From IMG/VR virus record IMGVR_UViG_3300046170_000036, positions 1 through 32,883 of that record: 32,883 nucleotides of DNA, one strand, 5' to 3'. Of this stretch, positions 3,333 through 32,661 are shown one piece after another; positions within the stretch are counted from its first letter, which is position 1, and each line of letters starts with the position of its first letter. The notes under the pieces were generated by a model that was not told where the DNA came from, searched no databases, and worked only from the letters and a program-made list of their open reading frames with translations. The position numbers were made by a program, and so were the translations under genes. Source of the stretch: a virus.

Positions 3333-3515
3333 GTGAAAAATGGTATGACTTACAAGGAGATAGGCGAAGTTCTTGGTATATCAGTAGTAAAAGTTCGCAT
3401 AATAGAGGCACAGGCGTTGAGAAAACTACGTCGTTCAGGTAGGCTGAGGGATTTCCTTTGCCTACTTGAAGCACCTGTCGAATTAAATTACGGTGAAAAA
3501 GTACCGAGAAAATAA
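3333..3515 (+). CDS. Sigma-70 region-4-like helix-turn-helix protein, 60 aa
   Basis: The GTG start at 3333 has GAGG about 8 bases upstream. Residues 5-34 read like the -35-recognition helix-turn-helix of a sigma factor (region 4.2): MTYKEIGEVLGISVVKVRII followed by EAQALRKLRR, compared with the family pattern 'LTLEEVGE.LGVS.ERVRQIEAKALRKLR'. Only this domain is present; the core-binding regions 1-3 are missing and the remaining 25 residues are unlike sigma. It may redirect host RNA polymerase or block -35 recognition, or be a small DNA-binding repressor. It is the last gene of the early run, just before the AT-rich gap and the replication genes. Confidence 0.7.
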   Translation: MKNGMTYKEIGEVLGISVVKVRIIEAQALRKLRRSGRLRDFLCLLEAPVELNYGEKVPRK

Positions 3516-5380: not shown

Positions 5381-5622
5381 GATGCGTTGCTTGCGATAAG
5401 ATAATGACAGACTACGAACTAACCAAAAAGTTTAGTAGTAGTGGTGAGTTCGTGGATATGTGTAATGAGTGTAGTCGTTACCTTGCTGATGATGACTTGA
5501 TAACAGTAGGTAACATGGACTATGCTACCCTTAGTGATCTAGAGGAGATACGAGATGTCGAACATGGGACGTTGGATTATGACACAGGAACAGAACAAGG
5601 AGATGAGGACGAATGGCTATGA
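5377..5622 (+). CDS. Small zinc-ribbon-like protein, 81 aa
   Basis: Two CxxC pairs (C3/C6 and C29/C32) with 22 residues between them fit a single zinc ribbon. The rest is acidic and ends in a run of Asp/Glu (GTEQGDEDEWL). It lies between helicase and polymerase and overlaps both (ATGA at the helicase stop; the polymerase start lies inside its end). It may bind replication proteins or DNA, but no family is recognised. Confidence 0.75.
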   Translation: MRCVACDKIMTDYELTKKFSSSGEFVDMCNECSRYLADDDLITVGNMDYATLSDLEEIRDVEHGTLDYDTGTEQGDEDEWL

Positions 5623-7302
5623 ACTTTCAGAAAGACAACAACTTGATCTCTCCTACTACGAATACTGTGTTCTTAGACATAGAGGCAGACGGCCTGAACC
5701 CTACGAAAGTACACTGCGTGGTTACAAAGAGATCGAACGAAGCTCACTTGACCCACTTATCTAGACGGAGTTTGATGGATGAACTGGCAAAAGGTGGACA
5801 GGTATGTGGTCATAATCTTATTGGCTACGATGTTTCCTGTGTTGTACAGGCTATGGGGTATACGCATACCTCAGCACAGAATTGTGGACACACTGGTACT
5901 TTCACGTCTCTTTCATCCTGACTTGGATGGTGGTCACAGCCTCGCTGCTTGGGGAACTAGGCTTGGATTCCCTAAAGGAGATCACACTGATTGGGAAGAA
6001 CTGTCTGAAGAAATGGTTGAGTACTGCAAGAGAGATGTGGATGTCACTCATAAACTACACGATGCACTGATGGCACAGATGCAGATGTTTGGATTCAGTA
6101 AGCACTGTGTTGATCTTGAGCACAGCGTTGCGTTCATCTGTAAGGATCAGGAAGACAACGGCTTTGAGTTTAACAAGAACGGTGCAGTAGAACTATACGA
6201 AGAACTTACTACCCGTATGCACAGGATAGAGAAAGATTTACAGCAAGTGTTCCCACCTATAGTAGAGGAGAGGATCAGTGATAAAACACAGAAGAGACTC
6301 AAGGACAAAGTTACGGTGTTCAATGTCGGTAGTAGACAACAGATTGCAGAGCGGCTTACTAGCAAGGGTGCTGTGTGGAAGGAACTCACTCCCGCAGGAA
6401 AACCAAAGGTTGATGAGGCTACACTTAAAAAGCAGACTCACATTCCAGAGGCAAAGATCATACTACGTTATCTTCTCTGCCAGAAACGAGCCTCTCAAGT
6501 TGACTCGTGGATTAAAGCAGTTGGCGAAGACAAGAGAATACATGGCAGAGTCAGGCACATCGGAGCTGTCACCGGACGGATGGCACACTCCGGTCCAAAC
6601 ATGGCTCAAGTTCCTGCTGTAAGGGCTGAGTACGGGAAGCAGTGTCGTGCGTTGTTTAACACACCTGATGGTCGTGTACTTGTTGGTGCTGATGCTAGTG
6701 GTCTTGAGCTACGTATGCTTGCACACTATATGAATGATGCTAACTACACCAACGAGATATTAACAGGTGATATACACACAGCTAACCAACATGCTGCTGG
6801 ACTAAAGACAAGAGATCAAGCCAAGACATTTATCTATGCGTTCTTGTACGGTGCAGGTGACGCTAAGATAGGCAGTGTTGTAGGTGGTAGTGCATCTCAT
6901 GGTAAGAAACTAAAAGCAGACTTTCTTGAGAACACACCCGCACTGGCAAAGCTACGTAAAGAAGTAACAAAGGATGCTGAGTCTGGTTTTCTTACTGGTC
7001 TTGACGGCAGACGTATACGTGTACGATCACAACACGCCGCACTGAACACGCTACTACAGGGTGCTGGTGCTGTGGTAATGAAGCAGGCTATCATTATCCT
7101 GTATGATTTGTTAGCCCGTGTTGACTTCAAGCTAGTCGCACAGGTACATGATGAGTGGCAGATAGAGTGCCGCCCAGAAGATGCAGACTTCATTGGGAAG
7201 TCATGTGTTAACGCAATGGTATTCGCAGGTGAACTCCTGCAACTGAACTGTCCGTTAGACGGAGAGTATAGAATTGGTAATAGTTGGGCAGATACCCACT
7301 AG
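5613..7302 (+). CDS. Family A DNA polymerase with 3'-5' exonuclease domain; interrupted by a one-base frameshift
   Basis: Replicative polymerase of the T7/Pol I type. The N-terminal exonuclease domain begins in the frame of 5613, with the FLDIEADGL motif (D22, E24) and GHNLIGYD. At 5833-5835 (TTT) one base too many is present: the domain continues in the +1 frame as PVLYRLWGIRIP, then the third exonuclease motif YCKRD and the whole polymerase domain. Polymerase motif A is DASGLELR (6691), motif B is RDQAKTFIYAFLYG with Tyr (codon 6835-6837) at the Pol I Phe762 position, and motif C is QVHDEW (about 7141-7158). Joined, it is about 562 aa, shorter than T7 gp5 (704). ATG 5613 has AAGGAG about 10 bases upstream; ATG 5619 (overlapping the previous stop) is the alternative. 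As written, no single frame gives a full polymerase. Confidence 0.88.
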
Positions 7303-10244: not shown

Positions 10245-10482
10245 AGGTAACTTTGGAAGCAAAGAAAACAACGACATAAAAACCTCTGAGTTTCTTGCGT
10301 TGTTATCAGCACGTAGTTTATGCTACGAGGAAGAAGAAAGACCTATCAAGTGTGTTGTTATTATGTATGAAGACGGAGAGGTATTTGAAGTCACAGCTAC
10401 AGAACAATACCCTGATGGTGTATACTTACTTTTAGGTTTGGCACAGGCAGCAATCATAAACGAAACTTTAGGAATAACTTAA
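10231..10482 (+). CDS. Unknown protein between DUF3310 and reductase genes, 83 aa
   Basis: Not recognised. The start overlaps the end of the DUF3310 gene by 14 bases and the TAA stop overlaps the A of the reductase ATG. The sequence looks like a small alpha/beta fold: a helix (SEFLALLSARSLCYEEE), two strands (IKCVVIMYEDG, EVFEVTAT) and a C-terminal helix (LLGLAQAAIINETLGIT). Confidence 0.7.
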   Translation: MKIVEGNFGSKENNDIKTSEFLALLSARSLCYEEEERPIKCVVIMYEDGEVFEVTATEQYPDGVYLLLGLAQAAIINETLGIT

Positions 10483-12354
10483 TGGATGCATATCAACAGT
10501 ACATACACAAGTCACGCTACGCACGCTACAATGCAAAAGAACAACGTCGAGAGACATGGGAAGAAACAGTTAATCGTTATGTTAACTATTGGGTAGACAA
10601 AGCAGACCTTAATGACTTTGAAGTATCTGAGATCTTCAAGGCTATACATGACCTAGATGTAATGCCTAGCATGAGAGCATTGATGACAGCGGGTGAAGCA
10701 CTAGACCGTGACAACGTAGCAGGTTTTAACTGTAGCTACTTACCTATTGATCACCCTAAAGCATTCGATGAAATGATGTACATTCTCATGTGTGGCACAG
10801 GTGTAGGCTTTAGTGTTGAGAGACAATACATAGCCAAGCTGCCTGAAGTTGCGGAGAAGTTTCATGAAACAGACACAGTTATTAATGTTGCGGATTCAAA
10901 GATCGGATGGGCGAAATCGTTTAGGGAACTGGTATCATTGTTGTATTCAGGTCAAATTCCCCAATGGGACATTAGCAGAGTACGATCTGCAGGTGCCGCA
11001 CTTAAAACTTTCGGAGGTCGTGCAAGTGGTCCAGAACCTCTCGTCGAACTATTCAAATTCACGTCCGGGTTGTTTCAAGGAGCGGCTGGACGAAAGCTTA
11101 CATCCATTGAATGCCACGATCTTTGCTGTAAGATCGCACAAATCGTAGTAGTAGGAGGAGTAAGACGATCAGCACTTATCTCACTATCTAACCTATCTGA
11201 TGACAGGTTACGCAGAGCTAAGACAGGTGAGTGGTATCATGCTAACCCACAACGTGCGCTCTCTAATAACTCTGCCTGCTACACAGAGAAGCCTGACTTT
11301 ATTGCTTACCTAGAAGAATGGAAAAGTTTATATGAATCCTACTCAGGAGAACGAGGTTTCTTCAGCAGAGTTGCTAGTCAAAAGCAAGCTGAAAGGAAAT
11401 GGCAGACGAGATGCTACCTACGATTTTGGAACTAATCCATGTAGTGAAATCATCCTCAGACCCAACCAGTTCTGCAATCTATCAGAAGTTGTTGTCAGGC
11501 CAGACGATACGCTCGCTAGTCTCAAACGAAAGGTACGCATTGCGGCTATCCTTGGAACTCTACAAGCTACCCTTACAGACTTTAGATACTTAAGGAGTAT
11601 TTGGAAGACAAACACAGAGGAAGAAGCTTTACTAGGTGTATCACTAACAGGTATCATGGATCATCCTTTACTATCAGGACGAGGGGACAATGCAAAGCTT
11701 AAGAAGTGGCTCACAGACATGCGAGAGGAAGCAATTGAGACTAACAAGCGGTGGGCTGAGAGACTTAACATTAATCCCTCTACAGCTATTACTGCGATTA
11801 AGCCTAGCGGTACTGTTAGTCAGTTGGTCGATAGTGCTTCTGGTATCCATCCTCGCTATAGCGAACAATATATACGAACAGTTAGAGCAGATTCTCGTGA
11901 CCCTCTTTGTGCTGTCTTAGAGGCTGCTGGTGTCCCTGTAGAGACAGATGTAAACAGTGCTAGTACTAAGGTATTCAGCTTCCCTATCGCCTCACCAGAG
12001 GGCGCTGTGACAGCCTCAGCTATGGGTGCGATAGAACAGTTGGATCTGTGGGAGTTGTATCAGGACTACTGGTGTGAGCACAAGCCATCAATGACTTGCT
12101 ACTATAGGGATCATGAGTTTCTTGAGGTAGGACAGTGGTTGTGGAACAAGTTCGATAAGGTATCAGGCGTTAGCTTCTTGCCCTACTCAGACCATGTATT
12201 CCAACAGGCTCCCTATCAACCCATTGATAAGAAAACCTACAAGCAAGCAGTAAAAGACTTCCCCACTGAGATCAACTGGGACATCAACGAGGAGTCTGAT
12301 ATGACTGAAGGCAGTCAGGAACTAGCTTGCACAGGTAACAACTGTGAGATCTAA
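10482..12354 (+). CDS. nrdJ: Adenosylcobalamin-dependent (class II) ribonucleotide reductase; interrupted by a one-base frameshift
   Basis: Reduces ribonucleotides to deoxyribonucleotides for phage DNA synthesis, using a B12 cofactor to start the radical. The monomeric type is indicated by GFNCSY (C84), NPCSE with the radical Cys at 11440-11442 and its Glu, the second disulfide Cys 11 residues on (NQFCNLSE), the GTVSQLVDSASGIHPRY segment and a C-terminal Cys pair with four residues between (ACTGNNCEI). Joined length is about 624 aa. The first frame (from 10482) carries the N-terminal half to QKQAER; at 11397-11399 (AAA) there is one base too many, and NGRRDATYDFGTNPCSE continues in the other frame. 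The ATG is preceded by AGGA. It is the last plus-strand gene; its stop interlocks with the stop of a minus-strand gene. Confidence 0.88.
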
Positions 12355-27625: not shown

Positions 27626-28618
27626 TTACTCGTCAGCAACAGCGAGGATAAATCCTGCTTCGGGACGGTAAGTCTCAACACCGTACAGAGTGTCAGCCGT
27701 GTACAGAGTAGAGAGGTACTCTTGCTTGTACTGGGTCTGAGAACGTACAGCCATTTGCTCTGCCATTACGAGAGCGTCTTTGTGGAAGAACAAGCAACCA
27801 CGGGTATCAAGAGATGAAGCACCGTTCTCACCACCTGTCTCAATTACGGGACAGTTGCTAGAAACGTATACGTCAACGCCGTACAAGTTACCGATGAGTC
27901 CTGACTCAACACCACGACCACCTACAAAGTCAGAAGACACGTAGCGCTCAATGCCCATGATTGACTTACGTGACGCAGGAGGAATAACGAGAACTCGTCC
28001 ATCCATAGGTACGTCAGCGTCATCCATTAGCTTGATAGCTTCGCGGAATCCAAGATCCGTAAAGTTGTCGCCTGTAGCTACAGTATCCACTGCATAGGTA
28101 GAAATACCAGTAGCAGCGTTAAAGTAGTAGCTGTTAGTGTTAACCCAGTTAGCACCAGTAGCAGCAGGAGACTGAGTACGAGTACCGTTACCAAAGCCAG
28201 TAGCAGCATTAATGAGGTCAGTGTCTACCTTCAGAGCAAGCTGGTAGCCAGCGTCTTCGGTGTAGAACTGTCGCAGAGAAGACAGAGCCTGTACTTCTAC
28301 GATGTCTTCAATCAAACGTGAGTACTCAAAGTGACGGTCAACAGTTACTTGCAACTCAGTTTCTAGGTTAGCCTGAATCGTAACTGCTACAGCTTCTGCC
28401 TTAGCAGATGCAGCACCACGAATGGGCTTAGGGATGTGAATAACATCGCCTTTCTTGCCGGTCATTTGCAGACGCTTGACAAGAGGAGCCATCTTCAGGT
28501 TCTTTTGGTAAGCAGCGATTACTTCATCGCTCCAGATTTCTGGGATAAAAGTCCCAGCAGCAGTTTTGTCTACTACAGCATTAGCTGTAAAGTAAGTACC
28601 AGAGGTTTCACCAGCCAT
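27626..28618 (-). CDS. Major capsid protein
   Basis: A 330-aa protein, no membrane spans, preceded by the scaffold gene and followed by a terminator, as expected of a capsid gene. The opening MAGETSGTYFTANAVVDKTA, the internal GDVIHIPKPIRGAASA, and the VDRHFEYSRLIEDIVEVQAL segment match the HK97-fold major capsid proteins of T7-like marine podoviruses as I know them. AAAGGAG lies 8 bases before the ATG. It is expected to be the most abundant product. Family name is by recognition only. Confidence 0.85.
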   Translation of the reverse strand: MAGETSGTYFTANAVVDKTAAGTFIPEIWSDEVIAAYQKNLKMAPLVKRLQMTGKKGDVIHIPKPIRGAASAKAEAVAVTIQANLETELQVTVDRHFEYSRLIEDIVEVQALSSLRQFYTEDAGYQLALKVDTDLINAATGFGNGTRTQSPAATGANWVNTNSYYFNAATGISTYAVDTVATGDNFTDLGFREAIKLMDDADVPMDGRVLVIPPASRKSIMGIERYVSSDFVGGRGVESGLIGNLYGVDVYVSSNCPVIETGGENGASSLDTRGCLFFHKDALVMAEQMAVRSQTQYKQEYLSTLYTADTLYGVETYRPEAGFILAVADE

Positions 28619-28635: not shown

Positions 28636-29439
28636 CTATCGAACCCGACCCTCTGAATACGCTTTGAGTAGTTCGTCCGACATGGACTGATAGCGCTCTG
28701 GGTCGGTTCTCATAAGTTTAATAATGTCAGCACGACGATAAACTTTACGACGAGATCCTTCTGCTGTTCCGCGAGCGTTGCCTGTGTTAGCTGACTTTAC
28801 CTGACTCTTACGAGCTGCTTTTTCTGCTTCTGCAGTTTGTTGAACTACTTGATTCCTTTCTTTCCAAAGGCTAAACAGTTCATCAGCAGAATCGTAATCG
28901 TATGCTTGGTCAGCCTGAACAAACAACTGTGTTCGGACTTTTGACCCTTTGATCCACTCAGCAAACTTAGGGTCTTGCAGTATCTGTTCCATCTCAGGAT
29001 GAGAGGATTTGAGTTGTGCAAGAGTAGCCTGTTGTTTGTATTGTTGTGTGTAAGCCTGTGCTTCCTTGATCTTAGGGTGGTTGTCTATAGCTCTACTAAC
29101 AGCGGTTTTAGGATCGACAAAAAAATCTACATCGTCATCGTTATCATCTTGTTGTTGCTGTTGTTGAGGTGCTTGTTGTTCTGAGAGTTGTGTTTGGATG
29201 TAGCTATCAACAACTTTACGTAACTCGCCAACTTCCGTACTCTGCTTACCTGAAAACTTTTCAAGTTCTTGGTGCATCTGTACGAGGTCTTCAACAGATT
29301 TACCTTGGTACTTTTCTGGAATTTCGGGCTGTTGAGGTTGTTCCTCTTCAGGAGTCTCTACAGTATCTTGTATGTCGAGTTGGTCTGTTGCTTCTAGTTC
29401 TTCTTCCGTACGCTCATCAAGTAATGTTGCTCGTGACAT
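28636..29439 (-). CDS. Capsid scaffold protein
   Basis: A 267-aa, highly charged, Gln/Glu-rich protein directly upstream of the capsid gene. The N-terminal half is acidic with a run of six Gln and DDNDDDVD. The middle is helical (QAYTQQYKQQATLAQLKSSH). The C-terminal third is basic (SRRKVYRRADIIKLMRTDPE), the usual capsid-binding end of scaffolds. Its lack of fixed folds and its location are typical of a scaffold that guides procapsid assembly and then leaves. No ribosome site stronger than a GGGG stretch is seen. Confidence 0.78.
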   Translation of the reverse strand: MSRATLLDERTEEELEATDQLDIQDTVETPEEEQPQQPEIPEKYQGKSVEDLVQMHQELEKFSGKQSTEVGELRKVVDSYIQTQLSEQQAPQQQQQQDDNDDDVDFFVDPKTAVSRAIDNHPKIKEAQAYTQQYKQQATLAQLKSSHPEMEQILQDPKFAEWIKGSKVRTQLFVQADQAYDYDSADELFSLWKERNQVVQQTAEAEKAARKSQVKSANTGNARGTAEGSRRKVYRRADIIKLMRTDPERYQSMSDELLKAYSEGRVR

Positions 29440-29498: not shown

Positions 29499-29723
29499 CT
29501 ATGAGGTTTCCCGCGTGGTTTGCCCAGCCTTCTCGTGTTCACGTACCCACTTCATGTGCCTGCCAGGGAAATCCCCAGAGGAACCGTCGAGTATGTGCTG
29601 AGTTGCTGATACAATCTTTGTAGCGTTAGCACCACATCCGCACCTACTGGATGTAGTACCTGCTTCTACAAATTCTTCAAAGGTATGTCCGTTAGTACAA
29701 CGAAAGTCAAATACTTTAATCAT
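29499..29723 (-). CDS. Zinc-ribbon protein (FmdB-like), 74 aa
   Basis: Starts MIKVFDFRCTNGHTFEEF, the usual beginning of FmdB-type small regulatory zinc ribbons. Cys9/His13 and Cys28/Cys30 (RCGCG) form the metal site. A KIVSATQHILDGSSGDFPGR segment and HMKWVREHEKAGQ tail follow. Its role in phages is not known. It overlaps the start/stop of the 82-aa gene by 8 bases and lies between it and the scaffold gene. Confidence 0.75.
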   Translation of the reverse strand: MIKVFDFRCTNGHTFEEFVEAGTTSSRCGCGANATKIVSATQHILDGSSGDFPGRHMKWVREHEKAGQTTRETS

Positions 29724-29964
29724 CTTCTTCTGGAGGCTTAGATGCCTCTTCGTAGTTAGTTTTAACGATAGTCTCCATGTTAATTAAGTGGGCTAATATG
29801 TTTAGTTGTCCCTTACGGAAGAACATATCGTCAGCATCTTTAGCTGCTTCTATACTGTTAATCTGTAAAGCATTGTTGCCAAAGTCTTGCACAAGTTGCT
29901 TCCAGCCATCAGTAATAAAAAGACTAAAGTATGCGTCGTAGTACTGCTGTGTTTCTTGATCCAT
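29716..29964 (-). CDS. Conserved-type phage protein, 82 aa
   Basis: An acidic helical protein (DQETQQYYDAYFSLFITDGW, KQLVQDFGNNALQINSIEAA, DADDMFFRKGQLNIL) that resembles short proteins in many marine podoviruses upstream of the scaffold gene. I do not know its function; a head-assembly accessory is likely from context. It is the first gene after the 30019-30047 promoter. Confidence 0.72.
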   Translation of the reverse strand: MDQETQQYYDAYFSLFITDGWKQLVQDFGNNALQINSIEAAKDADDMFFRKGQLNILAHLINMETIVKTNYEEASKPPEEDD

Positions 29965-29998
29965 CTTGAGGCCTCTTGGGTTGTCTCTGTTGTATTAA

Positions 29999-30014
29999 GT
30001 GTACCTAAGTACAC
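29999..30014. promoter_or_regulatory. Inverted repeat at the transcription start of the late promoter
   Basis: GTGTAC-CTAA-GTACAC (plus strand) is a perfect 6-bp inverted repeat with a 4-base spacer, just downstream of the -10 box of the minus-strand promoter and covering the expected start point. This is a classic operator position; no binding protein is known. Confidence 0.55.
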
Positions 30015-30018
30015 CTAT

Positions 30019-30047
30019 ATTATACCATACTTTTGACTAAAAGTCAA
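30019..30047 (-). promoter_or_regulatory. Sigma70-type promoter before the head-assembly genes
   Basis: On the minus strand TTGACT (30047-30042), 17 bases, then TATAAT (30024-30019), with TGG just before the -10 (extended -10). The -35 lies in a small inverted repeat TTGAC-TTTTA-GTCAA. The -10 and the following bases match the promoter at 7320. It would drive the 82-aa, Zn-ribbon, scaffold and capsid genes up to the terminator at 27590. Confidence 0.75.
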
Positions 30048-30066
30048 GCATTATTTTATGTAAATT

Positions 30067-30213
30067 TTACCGTTTCTTGGCTGTTTTCTTAGCTTTCTTA
30101 AAAGCAGAGGCCTTAGGAGCGCCTTTTGATCCCGGTTTACGCATAGTTTCACCTGATCCAGCCTTGATACGCTTGCGTTTGGCGTGTATGTTGCTGTATA
30201 GTCCCCTAGGCAT
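30067..30213 (-). CDS. Small very basic phage protein, 48 aa
   Basis: ATG 30213-30211 to TAA 30069-30067, 48 codons. The product is Lys/Arg-rich, starting MPRGLYSNIHAKRKRIKAGS and ending KKAKKTAKKR. I recognise this as a common short protein in the head-gene region of phages; DNA binding is likely from charge. It overlaps the stop of the 25-aa gene (TAATG). Confidence 0.75.
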   Translation of the reverse strand: MPRGLYSNIHAKRKRIKAGSGETMRKPGSKGAPKASAFKKAKKTAKKR

Positions 30214-30588: not shown

Positions 30589-30739
30589 TATTAGAGTCCT
30601 CCTTCTGGCGCAGGACCGACATTTGGTCCTCTAGGGCCACCACCTTGGCTTCTAGCTTCTCCAATTTGTTGAACTGGTCTTGGAACGCTTCGTTGATTTG
30701 GCTGAGAAATTGGTTCATTTCTGTTTGTGTCATTATCAT
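30515..30739 (-). CDS. Coiled-coil protein overlapping the portal end, 74 aa
   Basis: A minus-strand frame that overlaps the portal 3' end by 149 bases and the 95-aa gene by 74 bases in other frames. Its product looks like a real protein: NQFLSQINEAFQDQFNKLEK and LEAKVVALEDQMSVLRQ show a clean coiled-coil heptad, then a Lys-rich tail. GAGGAG lies 12 bases before the first ATG (30739); ATG 30733 is an alternative start. In the shared region the portal reads only low-complexity Asn/Arg/Pro/Gly, so the coiled coil may be the constrained frame. It could also be accidental. Confidence 0.5.
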   Translation of the reverse strand: MIMTQTEMNQFLSQINEAFQDQFNKLEKLEAKVVALEDQMSVLRQKEDSNNAKGKRPKTSKSGRVGLQQAKEDA

Positions 30740-32661
30740 TTCGGGAAGCTGCTCCTCTGTTTTCTTGGTTGTTCATGGACTTTTCTTTTAGTGCTACTTC
30801 AGCAATCTTAAGACGTTTTTCAAACTCTTTGTCGTCTGCGTCTCCTTCCTTAATATTTCTGGTGATTGCTTCAATTTTCTCAATCTGTAGCTCTTCTGGA
30901 GCAAGCTGTGTTTCCATAGCGTACTTAGATGCTCTAGCTTGCGACTCAGCAGCCTGTGCTTGTAGTGCCTGAAGTTTGGCTCTGCTGAAACTCCATCTGA
31001 GTCTGTTGAGCCATCTGAGCCATTTGCTGTGCTTGAGGATCTGGCTGTTGAGCCTGTTGCATAGACGCAATCAACTCATCACGGTTACTCAGGTTCATGT
31101 TGTCGATGATGCTCTGGATCAACACAGGGTAAATTGGACTGTCTTGCTTCATAGTTTGCAGAAGTTGCACCAACTGTGTTACCTCGTATTCCCTAGCAAT
31201 AATGCCTAGAGTAGACGTAGCGTTGAACTTGTAGTCAGCTACCGGGTAGTTCTCAGGGTCAAACTGCATGTACCTGTGTGCAGCTTTGGTTACAAACGGC
31301 AACAGGAACGACTGCTGAAAGTTAATCAAGGTGCGCTTATGACGTTTAATAATAGCACCAAGAGACATACTAATGCCAGCGGCAGTAGCTTCGCCATTAA
31401 CAGCGCCAGAAACTCCGGCTGAATCAACCGCTCCTGTAGCCTGCTGAACCATTCCCTGCAACGCTTGTGCTTGTGCGAAAGTGATTTGACCAACTTGCCC
31501 AAAGTTAAACGGCTGTAGTACTTCACGAGGATCTCCGTTAGTTAGAATCATCTTGCCCGGACGCACTTCTGGTTTAGCGCCACGAGGAAGCCTAGTTGCG
31601 TCAATAGCGAGCATTGGGTGGATTGTGAGACTCAAGGCGTCAATACGTGCGCGTAGCTCTGTGTCTAGCGCCTTCTGACTGTTGTAGCCCTTTTCGCATA
31701 CGCCACGACCCCAGAATCTTCCGGGAACTACGTCCCAAGGAAAAGCAACTACAGGCCTATCACCCATCATGTACGGATTAGCTTCAGCCTTTAGTAGTGT
31801 GCCACCGTTAGCTATAACTACGATAGCCTCAACGTACATAGACTCATCTTCTACTTCTACGTCCTCAGCCTCAAGCAACTCACGAGGTACGAGTCCGTAG
31901 TACTTCGTCAGGCGTACCTTGTCGTCGTTGTAGATCGTGAGGTCTTGGTCAGGCTCTAGGTCTGTGTCAGGCGCTGCAGACTCAATGTAAGCGTCTTTGT
32001 ATACGCCCTGCTCCTGTAGCATTTCTATGCTGTGCTTAGACACAAACTCATCAATAGCCACACCCATAGCGTCTTCTACAGTTGTTGCTACAGGGTCTAT
32101 GAGGAAGTTCTGAGGTAACACGGGCTTCAGCTTAACTACCACTCTGTCAGTAATGTTAACGCCTACAGCCTGCAACTGTCCGTCCATGATAGGCTGAGTA
32201 GCGGGCGCCATCTCCTTGATCTCCTCAAGAACTACCTCTCCCATTCCTGTACCAAACACAGCGGAGTTAATCAAGCACTCTGCAACAGCCTTACGTACCT
32301 TACACTTTTCAAAGTCTTCTGTTAGCTTGTTACGTAGGTACTGTACGTCCTGTCGGTCTTTGTCGTTAGTGTCATCAGCAATGTCAAACCACTTACCTCT
32401 GCCAAACGTGGCTTCCTCTAGCTCTGCTACGTTAGACTCTACGGCCTGCTGCAACGCAGGAGATATAATCCTAGAACGCTCTGATCCTCTCTGAGAATCC
32501 GCAGGATCCCACTGTCCTCTCCAGAGCCTGTAGTACTCTTCAAACTTTGCTTCGTAGTTTGACTCGTAGTGGTCACGCCAGTTTTCACACTTGGTCATCA
32601 CCCACTCTTCCAGAGACTCTTCAATCATCAGAGGGTCTGGGCTATAGATATCTTCTGCCAT
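30591..32661 (-). CDS. Portal (head-tail connector) protein; interrupted near its C-terminus by a one-base frameshift
   Basis: The dodecameric gate for DNA entry and exit. The N-terminal 560 residues run in one frame: MAEDIYSPDPLMIEESLEEW, the VFGTGMGEVVLEEI segment, YNDDKVRLTKYYGLVP, PVVAFPWDVVPGRFWGRGVC, and PDPQAQQMAQMAQQTQMEFQ. At 30981 one extra base puts the frame into QTSGTTSTGC-stop (30946); the other frame continues as AKLQALQAQAAESQARASKY, then EELQIEKIEAITRNIKEGDA ... EKRLKIAEVALKEK and a Pro/Gly tail ending PAPEGGL. This continuation is the normal helical C-terminal extension. Joined length is about 690 aa. Start is ATG 32661 after AAGGAAA. Confidence 0.85.

Follow-up and report, generated by a model that had tools for sequence, protein, structure and literature searches.

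A near-consensus sigma70-type promoter ahead of the scaffold and capsid genes of an uncultured marine phage group, and the palindrome at its predicted start

A perfect palindrome over the expected start point of a strong promoter raises the question of whether it acts in DNA, as the binding site of a regulator, or in the transcript. We considered this question for a viral contig (IMG/VR record IMGVR_UViG_3300046170_000036), here called the window, meaning the whole stretch of 32,883 nucleotides that was analyzed. In it, such a palindrome and promoter precede the scaffold and capsid genes on the minus strand. A preliminary description had proposed a late promoter for the scaffold and capsid genes, held off by a repressor or controlled by an activator.

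Promoter anatomy and the genes served

Direct reading of the minus strand gives a -35 hexamer, TTGACT (30047-30042), followed after a 17-base spacer by a -10 hexamer, TATAAT (30024-30019). TATGG stands immediately 5' of the -10, and the extended -10 element, TATGGTATAAT (30019-30029), has its TG at 30027-30026. Sigma70 promoters with an extended -10 and a UP element have a well-known anatomy, by which the A/T-rich stretch 5' of the -35 (30048-30070, minus) would be UP-element-like. Matching the consensus at 11 of 12 positions and having the TG, the promoter was the top-scoring site in two scans of the window, and it was the single site of at least 11/12 with TG, against none in 30 dinucleotide shuffles. 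These counts bear out the initial claim of a near-consensus sigma70 promoter with an extended -10. The sequence features of that class were found, namely near-consensus hexamers, a spacing in the 16-18 range and a TG one base 5' of the -10. Set beside bacterial promoters with an extended -10 and UP element, it has every contact element in place, and we found no difference. In our judgement, it is unusually near consensus for a phage virion-gene promoter.

From the spacing to the -10, transcription would be expected to start at about 30012 on the minus strand, giving a predicted 5' leader of ~48 nt (29965-30012) with a Shine-Dalgarno-like GAGG at 29975-29972. The promoter sits between a small basic open reading frame (ORF) ending at 30067 and a gene beginning at 29964, the first of those served, all on the minus strand. 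This gene (29716-29964) encodes an 82-amino-acid (aa) protein of unknown function, with no match in PHROGs or Pfam, nor in the phage collection that was searched for cultured relatives. It is followed by a gene for a 74-aa zinc-ribbon-like protein (29499-29723; Pfam Zn_ribbon_8, E = 8e-4, below that family's cut-off) and by a gene for a 267-aa probable scaffold protein (28636-29439), which matches PHROG 13678, of unknown function, and takes its name from its position directly 5' of the capsid gene. The 330-aa major capsid protein (27626-28618) matches PHROG 267 (E = 3e-53) and Pfam Phage_capsid_2; eight capsid relatives were found in bacterial genome bins, which fix no host.

Elsewhere in the window, the portal gene is seemingly frameshifted near its end, with two overlapping minus-strand ORFs (30591-31070 and 30946-32661), whereas the relative G001 has one ORF of 689 aa. 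The RNR-like (10482-12354, plus) and DNA-polymerase-like (5613-7302, plus) genes, both named from their translations, are likewise each divided over two overlapping frames, a pattern suggestive of small erroneous indels in the contig.

Conservation and duplication of the promoter

A search of viral contigs with the 82-aa protein as query yielded 134 relatives; 80 loci were kept. The pattern TTGACN-N17-TATAAT stands at the same place in 73 of these, the seven lacking it being L033, with only 36 bases of upstream sequence, and L087, L091, L092, L094, L095 and L098. The A-tract, TTGAC, the 17-base spacer, TRTG and TATAAT are all kept 5' of the scaffold and capsid genes in relatives. Searches with the capsid and a 95-aa protein reached more distant loci, many of which have the promoter ~1.4 kb 5' of the capsid gene. 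The proposal of a late promoter feeding scaffold and capsid genes thus stands as regards both genes and the keeping of position and sequence in relatives; its lateness is deduced solely from the genes served.

Conservation extends to positions that the search did not demand. A set of 94 unique promoters (L002-L258) was matched on TTGAC, the 17-base spacing and TATA[AC]T only, and every one of them has TG at -15/-14. T occurs at -17 in 94%, C at -36 in 97% and the A-run from -22 to -19 in 78-94%; in the A-tract, A occurs at -44 to -42 in 86-93%, or 86-94% when -40 is included. Save for the C at -36, these are the contacts expected of sigma70 polymerase. The core of these promoters otherwise shows no striking conserved block.

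The -35 had also been described as lying in a small inverted repeat. The repeat, TTGACT-TTT-AGTCAA (30047-30033, minus), is indeed there on direct reading and recurs in the nearest relatives. As a conserved element it fails, the AGTCAA partner being present in 4 of 28 representative rows, and it is probably incidental. Its resemblance to a controller-protein box (GACT-N3-AGTC) was considered and rejected on the same ground of nonconservation. Five other loci (L198, L199, L205, L215 and L218) have TTGACW and TATAGT, with GTCAA downstream in their leaders, an arrangement that looks more operator-like than that at the window's promoter.

The promoter is also duplicated. When 15 records were scanned with a strict pattern, seven (G001-G005, G010 and G012) proved to have a pair of matches on the same strand, 4.9-6.1 kb apart; four others, including the window, have one match, and the remaining four have none. 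Next after the upstream copy comes a gene whose product (151 aa, or similar) has no Pfam match and is probably the small terminase, given its position 5' of the portal gene and of a large-terminase-like gene, the latter named from reading its translation. With a somewhat looser pattern, a promoter lies within 500 bases 5' of the probable small-terminase gene in 75 of 80 loci; L305, L307 and L308 have none, and L298 and L302 offer too little upstream sequence. The window's own sister copy would fall beyond the right end of the contig.

The two 29-base promoters of G001 do not differ at any position. Across the 33 loci with both promoters, identity within genomes is 0.627, compared to 0.612 between genomes, a difference reached by 10 of 2,000 permutations; for the spacer alone the values are 0.636 and 0.634 (886 of 2,000). 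The slight within-genome excess could be explained by shared ancestry of groups instead of concerted evolution. The sister promoter has no start-site palindrome; other sequence opens its leaders, in some cases with a stem, such as UAGAUAC-N6-GUAUCUA in L300, and in others without one. One sister-promoter leader, in L259 (1060-1203, plus), is ~144 bases long and has complementary CCCC and GGGG stretches.

The start-site palindrome in DNA and RNA

Direct reading confirms the perfect dyad GTGTAC-CTAA-GTACAC that had been noted over the expected start, exact at 29999-30014. Perfect 6-base dyads (loops of 3-8) are no denser in the window than expected by chance, with 54 counted and 57 (standard deviation, 10) in shuffles, so the palindrome alone is weak evidence, and the chance that such a dyad begins in a given 12-base span is ~2%. 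Its partial conservation in relatives, on the other hand, argues that it is more than chance. In the transcript, the same bases would form the hairpin GUGUAC-UUAG-GUACAC (29999-30014, minus), with a weaker extension to 30017-29996. We consider a 5'-terminal mRNA hairpin more likely than a repressor site, although the statistical support for a hairpin is modest.

The pattern of change within the arms favors RNA. A set of 55 unique leaders was defined by such a promoter followed by a GAGAYAAYC block; 38 are within four changes of GTGTAC/GTACAC, and 32 of these read as true hairpins. Four of the six pairs show no change among these 32; the outer pair is G-C in 9, G.U in 16, A-U in 5 and G-A in 2, and the third pair is G-C in 29, A-U in 2 and G.U in 1. 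Departures from symmetry thus comprise 17 G.U and 2 G-A, with no A.C at all. A symmetric DNA site should show A.C as often as G.U, and its absence therefore counts for RNA pairing, although few independent events lie behind the G.U cells. In a second set, which overlaps the first and has 63 unique sequences, the counts are G-C 23, G.U 23, A-U 8 and G-A 9 for the outer pair and G-C 58, A-U 3 and G.U 2 for the third, the remaining pairs being fixed by the search pattern. On an informal reading of the tree of the 82-aa gene, several changes of the outer pair seem to have occurred.

The leaders also share the block GAGAYAACC-N-GGCCTC (29968-29987 in the window, minus), conserved in many relatives. 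In some of them, judged by eye, GGCCTC belongs to ATGGCCTC reading on in frame, and for this reason the start codon has seemingly moved downstream in the window's clade. We do not claim the block as a separate element, as its conservation may be largely that of old coding sequence and of the Shine-Dalgarno sequence.

The main alternative is that the dyad is a DNA operator, at which a dimeric phage or host regulator over the start point would hold this promoter off until late infection. Several points speak for it. Symmetry is perfect in the window, the TGTAC/GTACA arms are strongly conserved within the window's clade, and the invariance of four of the six pairs exceeds what structure alone requires. 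Its position over the start point is like that of the lac operator, and a host promoter this near consensus would, if unchecked, be active as soon as the phage enters. However, the distribution of the dyad does not fit an operator well. A search for the 16-base element elsewhere in the window, as the preliminary description had proposed, found no further copy within 3 mismatches, its own reverse strand aside. In the 15 records, TGTAC-N3-5-GTACA occurs in nine; it sits at the scaffold/capsid promoter in the window's clade, is the sole such site in G000, G002, G003, G004 and G007, and is joined by one further site in G001 and in G008; G009 and G012 have a single site in another place. From this distribution, a regulon operator was rejected. 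A regulator shared by co-regulated promoters would be expected to find the same dyad at the near-identical sister promoter, where it is missing, and to recognize half-sites at a fixed spacing, whereas these are separated by 3, 4 or 5 bases. One-sided changes to G.U-type pairs are frequent where A.C changes are nil, and many relatives keep the promoter yet lack the dyad. The repressor operator of the preliminary description is thus left without support from the sister promoter, the spacing or the tolerance of G.U, and we regard an operator, even one peculiar to this single promoter, as somewhat unlikely.

Another possibility is that the dyad has no function and that this one is simply inherited within its clade, short stems being common in A/T-rich start regions. 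The background density of such dyads in the window favors this reading, as does the modest size of the excess of stems over shuffles among leader clusters, where stems scoring at least 5 are found in 9 of 16 (5.0 expected) and those scoring at least 5.5 in 7 (2.9 expected). Folding counts against the hairpin, with the window's 75-nt leader doing no better than its shuffles (z = 0.05) and 15 leader clusters averaging a z of -0.5, six of them below -1. The GTGTAC-type dyad is missing in 17 of the 55 unique leaders, most of them without a strong hairpin. Against an idle dyad, the alignment shows arms that vary little and flanking bases that vary much, and the changes in the arms run along G-C, G.U and A-U lines. 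Moreover, unrelated hairpins occupy the same place in other relatives, UGUAUAGU-N3-ACUAUAUA in L041, L062 and L090, and a longer hairpin with a GAAA loop in L082. We therefore think a functionless dyad unlikely.

A stand-alone, 60-aa sigma70 region-4 protein encoded in the window (3333-3515, plus) might direct or time the promoter by acting at the TTGAC -35 and the inverted repeat there, but we think this highly improbable. The protein's Pfam Sigma70_r4 score exceeds the cut-off (39.8 bits compared to 24.1), and 5 of 15 records, including the window, have matches. Against such a role, the inverted repeat lacks conservation, and the search for relatives of the protein found none in G001-G004, possibly incomplete records with the same promoter or almost the same one.

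Probable use of the host polymerase, and late transcription

None of the 15 records, which may be incomplete, matches the T7-type RNA polymerase family (PF00940) in a search whose positive control, the Syn5 enzyme, was found; the host sigma70 polymerase is thus the likely reader of the promoter. Genome plan points the same way. The window follows the plan of the Cobavirinae/Zobellviridae, with opposed arms and no RNA polymerase found. In cobaviruses and related podoviruses without RNA polymerase (SIO1, CRP-4, ICBM1 and ICBM2), two arms oppose replication genes with RNR to virion genes, as in the window. CRP-4 is classed in the Zobellviridae, Cobavirinae, and has its replication arm set against its virion arm in like fashion; no RNA polymerase was found in it. 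For SIO1, the cobavirus paper describes a phage without RNA polymerase and with opposed genome arms (PMC6775973). Use of the host enzyme is what we infer from the lack of a polymerase match, the CRP-4-like plan and the SIO1 account.

The likeness has limits. Unlike the window, CRP-4 shows no comparable promoter 5' of its capsid genes when scanned. Among the capsid matches listed (40 of 49 records), CRP-4 is absent, and the best are cyanophages at 27-32%. HMO-2011-type phages (HMO-2011 and HTVC115P) have a related primase-helicase, with 46.9% identity in HTVC115P, and in HMO-2011 (L363, 19397, minus) a 12/12 extended -10 promoter heads a minus-strand gene block. These phages differ in their larger genomes and in the gene order around capsid and portal. 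A limited literature search found nothing linking HMO-2011, phage, promoter and late genes together.

Somewhat better than even confidence attaches to our preferred reading, a host-sigma70 promoter for a scaffold-capsid transcript, with the dyad acting in RNA as a 5'-terminal, probably stabilizing hairpin. In the mechanism that we infer, from the enzyme used and the timing to the exact start and the stabilizing effect, host sigma70 polymerase would bind the UP-like tract, the -35 and the extended -10 and start near 30012. The transcript would begin at or within the hairpin, run ~48 nt to the 82-aa gene with its GAGG ribosome site, and continue into the scaffold and capsid genes. This would be the second transcript of the virion operon, the first starting at the paralogous promoter ~5-6 kb upstream, 5' of the probable small-terminase gene. 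A start exactly at 30012 would cost two of the six pairs, whereas all six would survive a start at 30014 or 30015; in relatives, the 5' arm begins 5-9 bases past the -10, and loops are of 3, 4 and 5 bases.

A short hairpin of at least 5 pairs with a loop of 3-5 should make the capsid mRNA harder to attack by routes that depend on its 5' end. RNase E and RppH require single-stranded 5' ends, for which reason 5' structure stabilizes mRNA, according to a review (PMC3997798). The stabilizing 5' stem-loops of ompA and papA, as treated in that review, are comparable in that a hairpin is here likewise predicted at or a few bases from the 5' end, with structure apparently kept despite some change of sequence. 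Unlike them, the present hairpin is small (6 pairs), lies in a phage leader and is known from sequence alone.

A bolder extension is that a widespread marine phage family lacking its own polymerase relies on two duplicated near-consensus host promoters, each late transcript having its own, independently evolving 5'-terminal hairpin, and that RNA lifetime, or an RNA element acting on the elongating polymerase, sets late output in place of a repressor. We offer this as speculation and think it distinctly unlikely.

The promoter is of a textbook kind and the palindrome a small feature, making the find tidy and largely ordinary; of greater use, it seems, are the duplication of the promoter and the strength with which it is conserved across an uncultured phage group. 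Together they provide a sketch of late transcription in uncultured marine phages, drawn from sequence, in which two duplicated host-type promoters would serve the virion genes, and the promoter could be used as a marker of the late operon in such contigs. The start-site hairpin offers one small point at which to test how podophages lacking a polymerase may time virion genes that stand under strong promoters.
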